The position numbers and the translations under genes are program-made. The notes under the pieces are model-generated. The model did no database searches. It had not been told where the DNA came from and saw nothing but the letters and a program-made list of their open reading frames with translations. A stretch of 64,000 bases of DNA from Fibrobacter sp. UWR2 (GTDB taxonomy: Bacteria > Fibrobacterota > Fibrobacteria > Fibrobacterales > Fibrobacteraceae): the NCBI RefSeq assembly GCF_002210285.1, contig NZ_MWQE01000001.1:62001-126000 (forward strand). Direction: 5' to 3'. Of the stretch, positions 24,104-57,852 are shown piece after piece (position 1 is the stretch's first letter; every line of letters begins with the position of its first letter).

Positions 24104-24949
24104 ATGAAGGAAATCATTGAATACACAGATTATCGCAAGTTCATCCAGGACTACTACGATGAACGCAAGCGTTGCTCCGCTTTTTCTTGGCACGCGTTTG
24201 CCCAGAAGGCGGGTTTCTCTTCGGATGTCTACCTGAAGTATGTTTGCGAGGGGAAAAAGAATTTGAGCATCGCTTCGGCGGGCTCGGTGGCGACCGCAAT
24301 GGGGCTGGTCGGTTTCGAGTACGACTACTTTATCTTGATGGTGTCGTATGCGCATGCCAAGAGCGATACGGCCAAGCGGGCCGCATTCGAGGAGCGCTGT
24401 GCACTCGCGCAGGCCCACAAGATTCGGGTGCTCGGGAATGAAGAGTTCGATTATTTCAAGTCGTGGAAAAATTCTGTAATCCGCGAACTTGCCCCGCACA
24501 TGCCCGGCGCAAAGCCGCTCGAGATGGCGAAGGCCTGCAGGCAAAAGATTTCGGCGGCGGAAGTCTCCGAGACGCTCGACTTCTTGGTGAAGGCGAAACT
24601 CCTGAAGAAGGACAGGAGCGGAAACTACCAGCAGACGGACAAGGCCATCGTGATGGGGAGCGTAGATGCGGTTCCGGTGGCGGCACGCGAATTGCAAAGG
24701 CAAATGGGGGAGTTTGCCATCCAGTCGCTGGACCTGCCGCTATCGGAACGCATGATGTCGGGGTACACGCTTGGCCTTACGCGCCGTGCGTACGAACGCA
24801 TCAGAAAAGAAACGGAAGATTACTTCCGCCGCGTGGTGGCGATTGCGACAGAAGACGACGAGACGGAACGGGTCTACCGCCTGAATGTGCAACTGTTCCC
24901 GATGAGCGAACGCCTGGGGAAGAAAAATGAAGATAAAAAGGGGAGATAG
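24104..24949 (+). CDS. TIGR02147-family putative DNA-binding regulator, cassette B
   Basis: A 281-residue paralogue of the cassette A and C regulators, closest to C. It has the N-terminal MKEIIEYTDYRKFIQDYYDERKR block, the HTH-like FSWHAFAQKAGFSSDVYLKYV, and the second helical pair ISAAEVSETLDFLVKAKLLKK. Its end is a conserved VYRLNVQLFPMSERL. The start ATG 24104 has no Shine-Dalgarno sequence but lies 7 nt after a TATATT box, suggesting a leaderless message. It ends 2 nt before the ATG of the following lipoprotein. Differences from copy C cluster in the first HTH-like segment (HAFAQKAGFSSD versus REFARDAGFTSP), which would fit altered DNA specificity; that is inference. Confidence 0.85.
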   Translation: MKEIIEYTDYRKFIQDYYDERKRCSAFSWHAFAQKAGFSSDVYLKYVCEGKKNLSIASAGSVATAMGLVGFEYDYFILMVSYAHAKSDTAKRAAFEERCALAQAHKIRVLGNEEFDYFKSWKNSVIRELAPHMPGAKPLEMAKACRQKISAAEVSETLDFLVKAKLLKKDRSGNYQQTDKAIVMGSVDAVPVAARELQRQMGEFAIQSLDLPLSERMMSGYTLGLTRRAYERIRKETEDYFRRVVAIATEDDETERVYRLNVQLFPMSERLGKKNEDKKGR

Positions 24950-52972: not shown

Positions 52973-54481
52973 CTAATCAATGCATGAGAACAAGGCGCGC
53001 ATCTTGTCGTGATTCTTGATTCCGGGAGCGTCTTCGACACCGCTGGAAACGTCGATGAGTTCAGGCTGGAACTTGTTGATGAGGGTTGCGGCATTTTCGG
53101 GGTTGATGCCGCCTGCAAGCCAGAGCGGCAAATCGCCTGCTTTTTCGCGCAGCAGTGTTTCGGGAATGGTCTTGCCGGTACCGCCGGGAATGCCTTCTAC
53201 CTTAGCATCCAGCAAGATGCGGGGTTCTCCGCTCTTGCGGAGGGAAGCAACTTGCTCGAAGTCTGCGGATTCGCCCACTCGGGCGGCGCAGTAGTGGGCG
53301 AGGTTGGTGTCGGCTGCTGATGGCGCGATTCCGTGGAACTGGACTGCATCCAAGATGCCTTCCTGTGCAAGCCGGATGGCGGTCTTGCCTTCTTCGGAAT
53401 TCGGGTCGGTAATGACGCCGACGAGGAGCGGACCGTTTTTGTTTGCGTTAGATGTGCGAAGTTTTGTGGCGAAACTGCGCACGAAGCTTTCGGTCGTGAG
53501 ACGCTTTGTGGTGCTGAAAACAAACCCGAGCATGTCGGCTCCGAGTTCGGCGGCAAGCATGCCGTCTTCTTCGCGCGTGATGCCGCAGATTTTGACCAAC
53601 GGGCGGCGCACATCTTGTCGTCCAAATTTGCGTTCGGCAAATTTTTTCCAGAACTTGCCCTTCGCATTTTCGCGCCCGCTTTCGAATGCGTTCACGACTT
53701 CCTTGGCAAGCGGAGGATTCTTGGCTACAGCTTCGCCTACGAGGATTCCTGTAAACCCGAGGCTACGTGCATAGTCGGCATCAGCCGGCGTGAGGATTCC
53801 CGATTCGAAAACCGCCTTTGCCGGGAGCTTGCTGCGAACCGATGCCGGTACCAGCGGGTCCGTATGGAACGTGGCGAGGTCGCGCGAGTTCACGCCTGCG
53901 ACAATCGTCTTTGCGGCGCCGTCTCCGAGGGCTTCCGTCACGATTTGCAACTTGCGGAAGTCATCCTTTTCGCGGACTTCGACAAACGCCTGCATGTCGT
54001 AAGACTGCGCGCGCTTTGCCATCTTCACAAGTTGCTCGTCATCTAGGATGCGTGCAATCAAAAGGACGGCATCGGCGCCGCAACGGTAGGCGATGTTGAT
54101 TTCGTCTTCGTAGAGCAAGAAATCCTTGCGGAGCACGGCGCAGGCGTGTAGCCCCTGCTGGCGGCGCTTTTCCATCAGGTCTGCAACCGCAATCAAGTCG
54201 CGGAGCGAGCCTTTAAAGAAATTGCCTTCGGTCAGCACCGAAACCGCCTGGGCATGCGCTTCGGCGTATGTCGTCGCGAGCCTTACCGGGTCCAAGTCCG
54301 GAGCGATATCGCCCTTCGATGGCGATGCGCGCTTGACTTCGAGAATCGCACCCGCATTGCCGAGGAATTCCGTATGGCCTACGCGGCGCTTTTCCGGAAT
54401 GTCGATGCCAAAGTTAAGCCCAAGCCGTTCGATGTCGGCTTTGCGCATCCGCACTATCTTCGCAAGAATATCTTCGCTCAT
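52973..54481 (-). CDS. trpCF: Indole-3-glycerol-phosphate synthase / phosphoribosylanthranilate isomerase fusion
   Basis: A 502-residue bifunctional enzyme for two consecutive tryptophan steps. TrpC (about 1-265) shows ILEVKRASPSKGDI, AVSVLTEGNFFKGS, LRKDFLLYEDEI, GVNSRDLATF and the FESGI phosphate-binding segment. TrpF (about 285-502) begins RPLVKICGITREEDGMLAAELGADMLGFVF. The frame is open to 54532, but the extra N-terminal residues come from a REP-like intergenic repeat, so ATG 54481 (MSEDILAKIV) is chosen. It follows trpGD with about 65 nt containing that repeat. The fusion is the same as in enterobacteria. Confidence 0.94.
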   Translation of the reverse strand: MSEDILAKIVRMRKADIERLGLNFGIDIPEKRRVGHTEFLGNAGAILEVKRASPSKGDIAPDLDPVRLATTYAEAHAQAVSVLTEGNFFKGSLRDLIAVADLMEKRRQQGLHACAVLRKDFLLYEDEINIAYRCGADAVLLIARILDDEQLVKMAKRAQSYDMQAFVEVREKDDFRKLQIVTEALGDGAAKTIVAGVNSRDLATFHTDPLVPASVRSKLPAKAVFESGILTPADADYARSLGFTGILVGEAVAKNPPLAKEVVNAFESGRENAKGKFWKKFAERKFGRQDVRRPLVKICGITREEDGMLAAELGADMLGFVFSTTKRLTTESFVRSFATKLRTSNANKNGPLLVGVITDPNSEEGKTAIRLAQEGILDAVQFHGIAPSAADTNLAHYCAARVGESADFEQVASLRKSGEPRILLDAKVEGIPGGTGKTIPETLLREKAGDLPLWLAGGINPENAATLINKFQPELIDVSSGVEDAPGIKNHDKMRALFSCID

Positions 54482-54546
54482 GTTTTTGTACTTCAAAATG
54501 AAAGGAGATACCCGCCTGCGCGGGCATGACATCCATTATTGTTCTT

Positions 54547-56142
54547 TTAGCTATTCGTTTCGACCTTGACTTCCTCGATCTTCTTCAGAACGGAGCCGTC
54601 TTCCATCGCCTTCATGGCCTTGTCGAAGCCTTCCTTGATGCTCTCCGCCTTCTTGCTGATGTAGAGGGCGGCACCGGCGTTCAGGGCGCAAGCGTACTTG
54701 ATGCCCGGGCGGCCCTTGCCGTTCAGCACGTCGAGAGCGAGGTTGAAATTGTCGACACCCGTACCGCCGGCGAGGTCTTCAGGATCCACGGAAGGGATGC
54801 CGAAGTCCTTGGGATCGATGCGGTAAGTCTTGTACTCGCCATCTTCCAGGATTTCGGCGATGGTCGTCGGCACGCAGGGCGAAATTTCGTCGTAGCCGTC
54901 GTCACTGATGGCGACCATCACGCGCTTCGCGCCGAGGGCCTTTGCCGCCTTGGTGAACGGTTCCAGCACGGTCGTGCTATAGACACCGAGCATCAGGTAC
55001 TTGGCTTCGGCCGGGTTCGTGAGGGGGCCGAGCAAGTTCATGATGGTCTTTACGCCGAGAACGCCGCGAACCGGGCCGGCAAAGCGCATGGCACTGTGGT
55101 AAACAGGCGCCATCAGGAACACGAAATTCGTCTTGTTGATGACGCTCGCGGCCTTGTCCGGAGTCATGTCGAGCTTGAAGCCTGCGGCCGTGTAGAAGTC
55201 GGCGGCACCGGACTTGCTAGAAACCGCACGGTTGCCGTGCTTTGCAATCTTTGCGCCACAGCTGGCGGCAATCAGGCCGGAGAGCGAGCTCACGTTGAAG
55301 CTGCCCTTGCCGTCGCCACCGGTACCCACGATGTCGGTGAGTTCGTCACCGCTGTAGGGGAACTTGCGCTTCTTGCTGCTGAGTACCTTCGCGCAGCCGG
55401 CGATTTCGTCGGCGACAGGGCCCTTGCTGGAAAGTGCGGTAAGGATTGCGGCCATCTGGCGTTCGTCCATGATGCCGTCGGTCAAGTCTTCCATGAACAT
55501 TTCGGCGGTTTCGCGGCTCAAGTCCTTGCCCTCGGTAAGCGTGTTCAAGATTCCACGCACGTCGAGCGGTTCGCGACGGTAGTTGAGGAACGCCTTGAAG
55601 AATTCGTCGGCGCGGCCGCTGGCAATAGATTCCGGGTGGAACTGCACGCCTTCAATCGGGAGCGTCTTGTGGCGGATGCCCATGATGTCGCCGTCGGTGG
55701 CTCGGGCGGTCACTTCGAAGTCGGCAGGAAGTGTCGATTCATCGATGACGAGGCTGTGGTAACGCGTGAAGATGTTCTTCTTGCCGATGGTGCGGAACAG
55801 TCCCTTGCCGTCCAGGTCGATTTCTTCGGCGATGCCGTGCTTGATGAACTTGGCCTGCACAATCTTTGCGCCAAAGGCGTAACCGATGGCCTGGTGACCG
55901 AGGCAAACGCCGAGAATCGGGAGCTTGCCCGCAAAGTGCTTGATGGCTTCCACGGATATGCCGGCGTCTTCGGGGCGGCCCGGGCCCGGACTCACGATAA
56001 GGCGGCTCGGGTTCAGCTTTTCGATATCGGCGATGGTGCATTCGCGGCTACGGAGCACGCGGATTTCTTCAGTAGTAATCTTGGCCAACGCTTGGTAAAC
56101 GTTGTAAGTAAAAGAGTCGTAGTTATCGATAATGACGATCAT
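54547..56142 (-). CDS. trpGD: Anthranilate synthase glutaminase / anthranilate phosphoribosyltransferase fusion
   Basis: A 531-residue bifunctional protein. The TrpG part (about 1-190) has IIDNYDSFTYN, the glutaminase nucleophile in LGVCLGHQ and FHPESIASG. The TrpD part (about 198-531) has VGTGGDGKGSFNVSS, KHGNRAVSSKSGAADFY and GPLTNPAEAKY. The start ATG 56142 follows the trpE stop by one nucleotide (TAAGATG), so the two are translationally coupled. TrpG supplies ammonia to TrpE, and TrpD uses the anthranilate produced. A large antisense frame over the same bases is not a gene. Confidence 0.95.
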   Translation of the reverse strand: MIVIIDNYDSFTYNVYQALAKITTEEIRVLRSRECTIADIEKLNPSRLIVSPGPGRPEDAGISVEAIKHFAGKLPILGVCLGHQAIGYAFGAKIVQAKFIKHGIAEEIDLDGKGLFRTIGKKNIFTRYHSLVIDESTLPADFEVTARATDGDIMGIRHKTLPIEGVQFHPESIASGRADEFFKAFLNYRREPLDVRGILNTLTEGKDLSRETAEMFMEDLTDGIMDERQMAAILTALSSKGPVADEIAGCAKVLSSKKRKFPYSGDELTDIVGTGGDGKGSFNVSSLSGLIAASCGAKIAKHGNRAVSSKSGAADFYTAAGFKLDMTPDKAASVINKTNFVFLMAPVYHSAMRFAGPVRGVLGVKTIMNLLGPLTNPAEAKYLMLGVYSTTVLEPFTKAAKALGAKRVMVAISDDGYDEISPCVPTTIAEILEDGEYKTYRIDPKDFGIPSVDPEDLAGGTGVDNFNLALDVLNGKGRPGIKYACALNAGAALYISKKAESIKEGFDKAMKAMEDGSVLKKIEEVKVETNS

Positions 56143-56143
56143 C

Positions 56144-57592
56144 TTAGTTTTCTCCTTCGAGCACGGCGCGGATGGCACCCAATTTTTCATTCGTTTCTTC
56201 GAATTCGCGGTCGGCGTTCGAGGCCGCGACAATGCCACCACCGGCCTGCAGGCTGATGGTCTTGCCCTGCTTGAGGCAGCAACGGATGGCGATGCAGAAA
56301 TCCAAGTCACCGTCGGATTCCATGTAGCCAACCGCACCGGCGTAGAAGCGGCGCTTGACCTTTTCGAGGCCAGAAAGGATTTCGATCGCGCTGATTTTCG
56401 GAGCGCCGCTCACCGTACCTGCCGGGAAGCTGGAGCGCAGCACTTCGATGGCCTTCTTGTTCTTTGCCACACGGCCCTGCACGTCAGAGACCAGGTGAAT
56501 CACGTGGCTGAACTTTTCGCATTCCATGTACTTGGTCGTTTCCACCGTACCGGCTTCGCAGACGCGGCCCAGGTCGTTACGGGCCAAGTCCACGAGCATC
56601 AGGTGTTCGGCGCGTTCCTTCGGGTCACTCTTCAAGTTCTTCATCAGGGCTTCATCTTCGGCATCATCCTTGCCGCGGCGGCGGGTACCTGCAATCGGGT
56701 GAATCGTCGCAATGCCTTCACGCACGCGCACGAGGCTCTCCGGCGAGGCACCGATAAACTGGTGCGTACCGTAATCGAGGAAGAACATGTACGGAGACGG
56801 GTTCACCGTACGGAGGCGGCGGTAAATGTCGAGCGCCGCGATGTCGCTTGCAAACTGAATGCGGCGGGAAGGCACGGCCTGCACGATGTTGCCGGCGATG
56901 ATATGCTTCTGCAAAGCTTCGACCTTTTCCACGTATTCCTTGCGGGACTGTTCCAGGTCGGTCATCGTAATGCCCTTGCCGTACTGCTGTTCCGGGGCGA
57001 GGTAGCTGAAGTCGAGGTCGGCGAGGCGGGCTTTCACCTTTTCGATGGCGGCCTTCAAATCAATCTGGTGTTCTTCATAGTTCAGGGCGAACAAGTGAAG
57101 CTTTTCGGTAAAGTGGTCAAACACGATGTAGATGTGGCCCACCAGGAATTCCGCTTCGGGAATGTTGAGTTCATCGACCTGCGGGGCGAGGCGAATCGTA
57201 TCGCAACGGGCACAGAATTCGTAACCGAGGTAGCCCACGCCCGAAGAAGGAATAGGAATCTGGTTGGGCGGCACTGTATTTTCGGCAGAGATCAGCGTGA
57301 GGGCGTCGAGAATATCACCTTCGCCTTCCTTGAGGAACGTGCTTTCCTTGCCGTCGATGATGATGCTCACGTCCTTCTCGTTCTGGCGCAGACGGAAGCC
57401 TTCGTCCACCATCAGAGTGGAGTAGCGGCTACGGCCATGCGAGAAGCTAGCCGATTCGAAGATTGCCTTCGCGCCGAGCTTCCTGCCGAGCGAAAACGGG
57501 GTGTAACGTTCACCGGGCAGCGCCACGTAGATGCTGTCGGTACGCGGCTCGTAACCCGGTTGTTCTGTGATGTGCTTGATCTTGTTCGTCAT
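56144..57592 (-). CDS. trpE: Anthranilate synthase component I
   Basis: A 482-residue chorismate-binding enzyme that makes anthranilate with TrpG. Signatures include GYLGYEFCARCDTIRL, QAVPSRRIQF, SPYMFFLDYGTHQFIGASPESLV, IAGTRRRGKDD, HLMLVDLARNDLGRV and the C-terminal RSSFPAGTVSGAPKISAIEIL with RRFYAGAVGYM. The frame is open to 57745, but the upstream part overlaps the attenuator; ATG 57592 with AGAGGATC upstream is chosen. It is the first structural gene of the trp operon and is controlled by the leader at 57690-57829. Confidence 0.95.
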   Translation of the reverse strand: MTNKIKHITEQPGYEPRTDSIYVALPGERYTPFSLGRKLGAKAIFESASFSHGRSRYSTLMVDEGFRLRQNEKDVSIIIDGKESTFLKEGEGDILDALTLISAENTVPPNQIPIPSSGVGYLGYEFCARCDTIRLAPQVDELNIPEAEFLVGHIYIVFDHFTEKLHLFALNYEEHQIDLKAAIEKVKARLADLDFSYLAPEQQYGKGITMTDLEQSRKEYVEKVEALQKHIIAGNIVQAVPSRRIQFASDIAALDIYRRLRTVNPSPYMFFLDYGTHQFIGASPESLVRVREGIATIHPIAGTRRRGKDDAEDEALMKNLKSDPKERAEHLMLVDLARNDLGRVCEAGTVETTKYMECEKFSHVIHLVSDVQGRVAKNKKAIEVLRSSFPAGTVSGAPKISAIEILSGLEKVKRRFYAGAVGYMESDGDLDFCIAIRCCLKQGKTISLQAGGGIVAASNADREFEETNEKLGAIRAVLEGEN

Positions 57593-57689
57593 GTGATCCT
57601 CTGGTTTATAAATTCTTTTGCGTTTCTCGGTTTCGGGTTCCGCAAAGGCTTTTTTGTCCCGGAGGATTTCAGCGATTTGGGTAAAAGAG

Positions 57690-57769
57690 AAAGGCCTCCG
57701 TGAGTCCGGAAGCCTTTGCTTAAAATCTTGGGTGATTTGCGACAAATACCGGGCTCTATGTTAGAGTCC
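57690..57769 (-). promoter_or_regulatory. trp operon attenuator (alternative hairpins)
   Basis: Minus-strand RNA can form a 1:2 hairpin (57751-57769, GGACTCTA with TAGAGCCC). Alternatively it forms a 2:3 antiterminator (GAGCCCGG at 57749-57756 with CCGGACTC at 57702-57709, one mismatch). The third option is a 3:4 terminator (57690-57700 with 57707-57717, one mismatch) followed by CTCTTTT. Strand 1 overlaps the end of the leader peptide just after its Trp codons, as in classical attenuation. Confidence 0.75.
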
Positions 57770-57817
57770 GCGCCACCAACGACGGTTGAAGCATGCTGTT
57801 GTCACAAAGTTCATCAT
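57761..57817 (-). CDS. trpL: trp leader peptide
   Basis: An 18-residue frame, MMNFVTTACFNRRWWRGL, with two adjacent Trp codons four codons before the stop. The stop codon lies within the 1:2 hairpin sequence. Low charged tRNA-Trp would stall the ribosome at WW, freeing strand 2 to pair with strand 3 and letting transcription reach trpE. The ATG is 6 nt after a TAATTT box, so the leader mRNA may have almost no 5' untranslated region. Confidence 0.8.
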   Translation of the reverse strand: MMNFVTTACFNRRWWRGL

Positions 57818-57823
57818 GGTCCA

Positions 57824-57852
57824 AAATTACCAATCGGGCGGATTTTTGGCAA
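57824..57852 (-). promoter_or_regulatory. trp operon promoter
   Basis: On the minus strand TTGCCA (57847-57852), a 17-bp spacer and TAATTT (57824-57829). Confidence 0.6.

Follow-up and report, generated by a model that had tools for sequence, protein, structure and literature searches.

Our comparative analysis indicates that the trpE-trpGD-trpCF unit of Fibrobacter sp. UWR2 is, with high probability, controlled by a ribosome-mediated transcription attenuator. All three genes lie on the minus strand of the window (the whole stretch of 64,000 nt analyzed here):

56144-57592, minus strand: trpE, anthranilate synthase component I (best NCBIfam match TIGR00564)
54547-56142, minus strand: trpGD fusion (NF011201; start approximate; translation MIVIIDNYDSF..., as in locus L047)
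52973-54532, minus strand: trpC-trpF fusion, the last trp gene of the unit

The original prediction had placed a promoter, an 18-residue leader with tandem Trp codons and mutually exclusive 1:2, 2:3 and 3:4 pairings 5' of trpE, and all of these elements were found on the minus strand, with promoter, leader, and terminator about 225 nt upstream of trpE. The features brought out by comparison with relatives are a leader that is conserved and very probably translated, alternative pairings supported by compensatory changes, a hairpin resembling a terminator, the spacing between Trp codons and pairing segments, and the complementarity of a fifth segment. As a side observation, the trpE match came in abutting pieces in several assembled relatives, the break lying mostly near residues 315-345 (for example, G033:C8:85632-87030, G152:C17:75026-76421, L048, and L056), which may reflect a frameshift, a deletion, or an assembly error.

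The promoter and the leader ORF are composed of the following elements:

57847-57852, minus strand: -35 hexamer TTGCCA (TTGACA in some relatives)
57824-57829, minus strand: -10 hexamer TAATTT (TATTTT in most relatives)
57761-57817, minus strand: leader ORF trpL, MMNFVTTACFNRRWWRGL plus UAA, 18 codons and stop
57773-57778, minus strand: tandem Trp codons UGGUGG, the proposed stall site

Of the 30 relatives compared first, 29 carry trpL before trpE. In the one exception (L002), trpE has been relocated to a position downstream of trpBA, a unit with a WWW leader of its own (MKMNSAIRFNRWWWGSRT). Within the genus, a leader pattern matched 49 of 61 genomes and the reversed control pattern matched none; in a collection with one genome per species, the 58 pattern matches belonged to Fibrobacter or its order, except for nine scattered in other phyla, downstream of which no trp gene of this operon was found. 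When 59 distinct leaders were aligned, the promoter and the pairing segments were nearly invariant and the spacers variable. The coding constraint on the ORF was assessed by pairwise comparison of 31 distinct 18-codon leaders, in which synonymous changes made up 48.6% of the codon differences in the leader frame versus 6.9% and 4.2% in the other frames. Because synonymous differences are concentrated in this way, the leader ORF is very probably translated. Leader lengths are 17, 18, 19, or 23 codons, with no difference that breaks the frame, and either UAA or UGA serves as the stop. Conservation of the WW peptide in relatives, which had been proposed as a check, was borne out, with the core NRRWWRGL across the genus and DGRWWRGL in one genus clade.

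That the WW frame is incidental, and that the leader serves some other Trp sensor (a T-box, TRAP, or a TrpR operator), is an explanation to which we give very little credence. The position of the leader ahead of trpE is the single observation that speaks for it, but the frame is under coding constraint, Trp runs recur in leaders that are otherwise unrelated, and no match to TrpR, TRAP, or a T-box was obtained in the genome with searches that detect them in control genomes. The leader likewise gave no match to Rfam RF00513 (Trp_leader), neither at the gathering score nor at E-values up to 10. Weak matches to the Rfam families ctRNA and Phe_leader fell below threshold, and nothing relevant was found among them.

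In the window promoter, a spacer of 17 nt separates the -35 and -10 hexamers, and 6 nt separate the -10 box from the ATG at 57817. The same geometry was seen throughout the aligned leaders: the spacer measures 17 nt in 57 of the 59 and 18 nt in the other two, and the distance from the -10 box to the ATG is 6-7 nt in every one. Since this distance puts the usual start site on or beside the A of the ATG, the leader is probably translated from a leaderless RNA, whose first nucleotide is predicted to be the A of the AUG or the one before it. A nearly leaderless RNA had been suggested from the 6 nt seen in the window, and the constancy of the spacing across leaders strengthens that reading. The trp attenuator RNA of Sinorhizobium meliloti begins with the ATG of trpL (PMC7298713). 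A Bacteroidetes-type box, TAnnTTTG, fits many of the leaders, yet it is rare before other genes and is not kept in all leaders. We therefore prefer a sigma-70-type promoter, whose pattern (TTG-N-C-A/G, 17-18 nt, TAnnnT) is present in 59 of 59. Separately, two ORFs of the window, at 24104 and 36441 (plus strand), have a TAnnTTTG box 4-5 nt 5' of their ATG, which suggests that leaderless mRNAs are not restricted to leaders.

The pairing segments run from the end of the leader ORF to the terminator:

57763-57770, minus strand: segment 1, CGGACUCU, the end of the leader ORF and the first base of its stop
57749-57757, minus strand: segment 2, AGAGCCCGG, partner of segment 1 or 3
57702-57717, minus strand: segment 3, AAAGGCUUCCGGACUC, of which 3b, CCGGACUC (57702-57709), pairs with segment 2 and AAAGGCUUCCG pairs with segment 4
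57690-57700, minus strand: segment 4, CGGAGGCCUUU, the 3' arm of the terminator, followed by a broken U tract, CUCUUUUACC

Segments 3 and 4 form a terminator-like hairpin (57717-57690) of 11 pairs and -18.0 kcal/mol. The U tract after it is interrupted in the window, imperfect in the genus, and poor in L020 and L021. Segments 1 and 3b have a common sequence and are rivals for segment 2, just as segments 2 and 4 are rivals for segment 3. Pairings 1:2 and 2:3 each contain one C.A mismatch in the window leader, and owing to this mismatch the 2:3 complementarity of the window alone does not beat shuffled sequences, 25% of which are as good. Across 20 leaders tested, the window included, 2:3 beats shuffles at 5% or better in 18, so that the case for this pairing comes from the relatives and not from the leader of the window itself. 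In all 20 leaders segment 2 begins 7-18 nt past the last Trp codon (15 nt in the window), and, judged by this spacing, the placement of the Trp codons fits a stalled ribosome that covers segment 1 and frees segment 2.

Compensatory changes in the stems had also been proposed as a check, and we found them in the 2-3, 3-4, and 1:2 pairs. In one genus clade, the C of segment 2, the G of segment 3, and the C of segment 4 change together to U, A, and U. Thus the 2-3 pair goes from C-G to U-A in 9 of 27 distinct rows and the 3-4 pair from G-C to A-U in the same 9, and it is this change in step through three segments that supports mutually exclusive pairings. At one position of 1:2, G-C is replaced by G-U or A-U (A-U in 2 of the 27 rows), and all 27 rows are paired at each of the three changed positions. 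For both structures, the covariation score and the percentage of paired cells were reached by none of 500 shuffles, and slid registers paired at most 62% of cells versus 91-95% in the true register; these counts lean towards the structure, as segments were cut by hand and the loops and one bulge in L020/L021 were removed. The key change from C/G/C to U/A/U is a single event inherited by a clade. We regard the leaders of other genera (such as MNYTIITLNGNNWWWRTSKSEYAC, MNFICNNNAWWWQTQ, and MQVQYIVNGFWWWSLS) as stronger evidence for the pairings than this clade-bound covariation: their sequences are unrelated, yet a segment 2 complementary to the terminator arm has been rebuilt in them.

In the mechanism that we propose, RNA polymerase would start at or beside the AUG of the leader, and a ribosome would load on the leaderless 5' end. 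With charged tRNA-Trp low, the ribosome would stall at UGGUGG with its footprint over segment 1; segment 2 would then pair with 3b, no terminator would form, and the operon would be transcribed. With Trp plentiful, the ribosome would reach the stop codon, which lies in the 1:2 loop, and cover segment 2, and the 3:4 hairpin would terminate transcription. If the leader were not translated, 1:2 would form and 3:4 would again be left to form. Stalling, termination, the start site, and the effect on translation discussed below are the steps that we infer. The enterobacterial type of logic put forward in the original prediction is supported by the conservation, the coding constraint, and the compensatory changes.

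A terminated leader RNA or its peptide might also act in trans, besides or instead of in cis, as is the case for rnTrpL and peTrpL of Sinorhizobium meliloti. In favor of such a role, the NRRWWRGL peptide shows no letter changes in most of the genus, and the product of termination, if leaderless, would amount to a small mRNA. Against this, the invariant codons CGC GGA CUC are accounted for by segment 1, and the peptides of other genera are unrelated except for the Trp run, and we consider action in trans unlikely.

Elements 3' of the terminator go beyond the original account and suggest that attenuation in cis may have a second layer, acting on translation of trpE:

57657-57670, minus strand: segment 5, GAAAUCCUCCGGGA, with complementarity to segment 4 at CGGAGG as well as to the Shine-Dalgarno region of trpE
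57640-57651, minus strand: AAGCCUUUGCGG, inner helix of the predicted stem masking the Shine-Dalgarno region (UUUGCG:CGCAAA), with GCAAAGGCUU of segment 3 as alternative partner
57596-57604, minus strand: the trpE Shine-Dalgarno (SD) region, CCAGAGGAU

In RNA that has read through with 3:4 formed, segment 5 would pair with the trpE SD; with segment 3 held by segment 2, the freed segment 4 would take segment 5 first and leave the SD open. The whole would be a relay of six elements (1-2-3-4-5-SD), in which the off state is 1:2, 3:4, and 5:SD and the on state is 2:3 and 4:5, so that one stalled ribosome would control first termination and then the translation of trpE. We put this relay forward tentatively, with close to even confidence. 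We also considered that AAGCCUUUGC, which follows segment 5, pairs with GCAAAGGCUU in segment 3; this is possible, but would form a pseudoknot with 2:3.

Segment 5 is retained 3' of the terminator in nearly all genus leaders and in one sister family. It follows the changes of segment 4, with C-G in 17 distinct rows, U-A in 7, and U-G in 1. The helix between segment 5 and the SD covaries in L025 and L060, where A-U becomes G-C and GUCCU pairs with AGGAC, and it has been rebuilt in L020/L021, where GCUCCCCGG pairs with CCGGAGGAGC. L025 and L060 are not sisters in the TrpE tree, which allows two events without proving them, and the compensatory events for the second layer are few and clade-bound. 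In 17 of 23 loci, the predicted masking of the SD was stronger than in dinucleotide shuffles (at 4% or better); the other six, L020/L021 included, did not beat shuffles. L083, which has lost segment 5 by a natural deletion, showed masking no better than in shuffles, and masking was weaker in loci where about 90 nt more precede trpE.

These data have to be weighed against a purely transcriptional attenuator, in which segment 5 would help to keep segment 4 in its antiterminated form or would serve mRNA stability or processing. Consistent with this alternative, pairing 4:5 is kept in 98.7% of cells versus 80% for 5:SD, and some copies of the leader before trpB keep CCUCCAG with no matching SD recognized there. 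Moreover, when 2:3 was forced in equilibrium folding, the SD stayed masked in most loci and was clearly open in a minority. Because the mask stays closed at equilibrium in most loci, the relay would have to act kinetically, with 4:5 forming before the SD is made. On the other side, changes in the SD are matched by segment 5 in L025, L060, and L020/L021, SD masking exceeds shuffles in most loci, and the GAGGAU of trpE is unusual in the window, whose genes with a recognizable SD mostly have AAGGAG- or GGAGA-like sequences. Overall, we view a purely transcriptional device as possible but somewhat doubtful.

With regard to the relay, the quality of the U tract varies with segment 5. Its mean T score is 5.7 in other genera, which have no segment 5 and mostly unbroken tracts, 4.3 with segment 5 present and the tracts broken, and 3.7 in the sister family f2, a contrast that rests on few evolutionary transitions. 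In f2, decay of the U tract goes together with the strongest 5:SD helix, and the device may for this reason have turned into a translational attenuator.

The core attenuator appears, from the genomes compared, to be conserved across the bacterial family. Upstream of trpE, a WW or WWW leader followed by a terminator was found in most other genera of the family (g15 and g17-g23) and in two further families of the phylum, f6 and f9; outside the family, the genomes with a WW leader and a terminator include G052 (L099) and G096 (L177). In the genomes examined of families f3, f4, f7, f8, and f10-f13 there was no WW leader with a terminator ahead of trpE; f5 was left out, as the contig ended there. 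Genus g16 (L157-L159, L161, L162, and L164), unlike its sister genera, has no WW leader before trpE, a possible loss of the leader. Further copies accompany split operons. The same genome carries a second trp leader ahead of trpB, MMMNTAIRFNRWWWGSRT (L186; G000:C1:179308-179346, minus strand), which has the same segment plan without segment 5, and leaders stand before trpGD in L047 and before trpBA in L061, with additional copies in L066, L069, L118, and L133 that are likely ahead of trpBA.

Leaders of related design may serve other amino acids. A leaderless leader with a terminator, MRKILNLRLLLCIAHGARF (L188; G000:C1:983269-983307, plus strand), lies before a 2-isopropylmalate synthase gene (NF042434) and is a candidate leucine attenuator. 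Another, rich in alanine and also followed by a terminator, MSKIFGQNFIAAAAIAASPAAARAIMGLSRETKVCKA (L191; G000:C2:362784-362823, minus strand), precedes a PLP aminotransferase (NF005334; alanine aminotransferase was matched less well). Six relatives have Ala-rich leaders like it, and L191 is a possible alanine attenuator, for which our literature search found no precedent. A scan of the genome for histidine runs yielded no convincing his leader among the loci inspected.

Judged from genome comparison by its testable features, the Fibrobacter switch is, and would work like, a ribosome-mediated trp attenuator. It shares with the enterobacterial system (RF00513, the Yanofsky model) the tandem-Trp leader peptide, segments 1-4, a predicted stall position that covers segment 1, and the terminator before trpE, but it differs in having no Rfam match, a probably leaderless leader, no detected TrpR, the extra segment 5, and a second copy before trpB. 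S. meliloti trpLE(G) has the RNA start at the leader AUG that is predicted here, shares the distribution of trp genes over several units, and is described as free of transcription repression. It differs in its 14-residue peptide of other sequence and in that attenuation is confined to trpE(G) among three trp operons, and the available part of the report makes no mention of a segment 5 (PMC7298713). Actinobacterial trp attenuators, which belong to another phylum, share predicted leaders with two or three UGG codons, and in Corynebacterium diphtheriae such leaders are predicted before both trpB1EDGC and trpB2A; an SD mask for trp is not reported in the portion of that work consulted (PMC1262725). 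Bacillus subtilis trp also has two layers on trpE, a terminator and an SD-masking hairpin, but its sensor is the Trp-binding protein TRAP and not a ribosome on a leader peptide (PMC11255114). The B. subtilis tlrB (yxjB) leader combines leader-peptide stalling with transcription and translation attenuation, but it responds to macrolides and not to an amino acid, and the stalled ribosome itself blocks the mask, with no pairing relay (PMC6851288).

The original prediction knew of no trp attenuator in Fibrobacterota, and in the open-access literature, with most subscription papers outside its reach, we likewise found no prior description of one, nor of any two-layer amino-acid attenuator with a leader peptide. 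Attenuators were reportedly described by Vitreschak et al. in 2004 in proteobacteria and in some Bacteroidetes/Chlorobi.

Our results extend Trp-codon attenuation to Fibrobacterota, and they add to the original account a segment after the terminator that could mask the SD, the second leader before trpB, and the spread through the phylum. Since the same promoter-ATG pattern is seen at leucine-rich and alanine-rich leaders, amino-acid control in Fibrobacterota may generally make use of attenuators with leaderless leaders. Should the relay be real, it would mean that a transcriptional attenuator can gain a translational one and may even give way to it, the intermediates being present in living genera.
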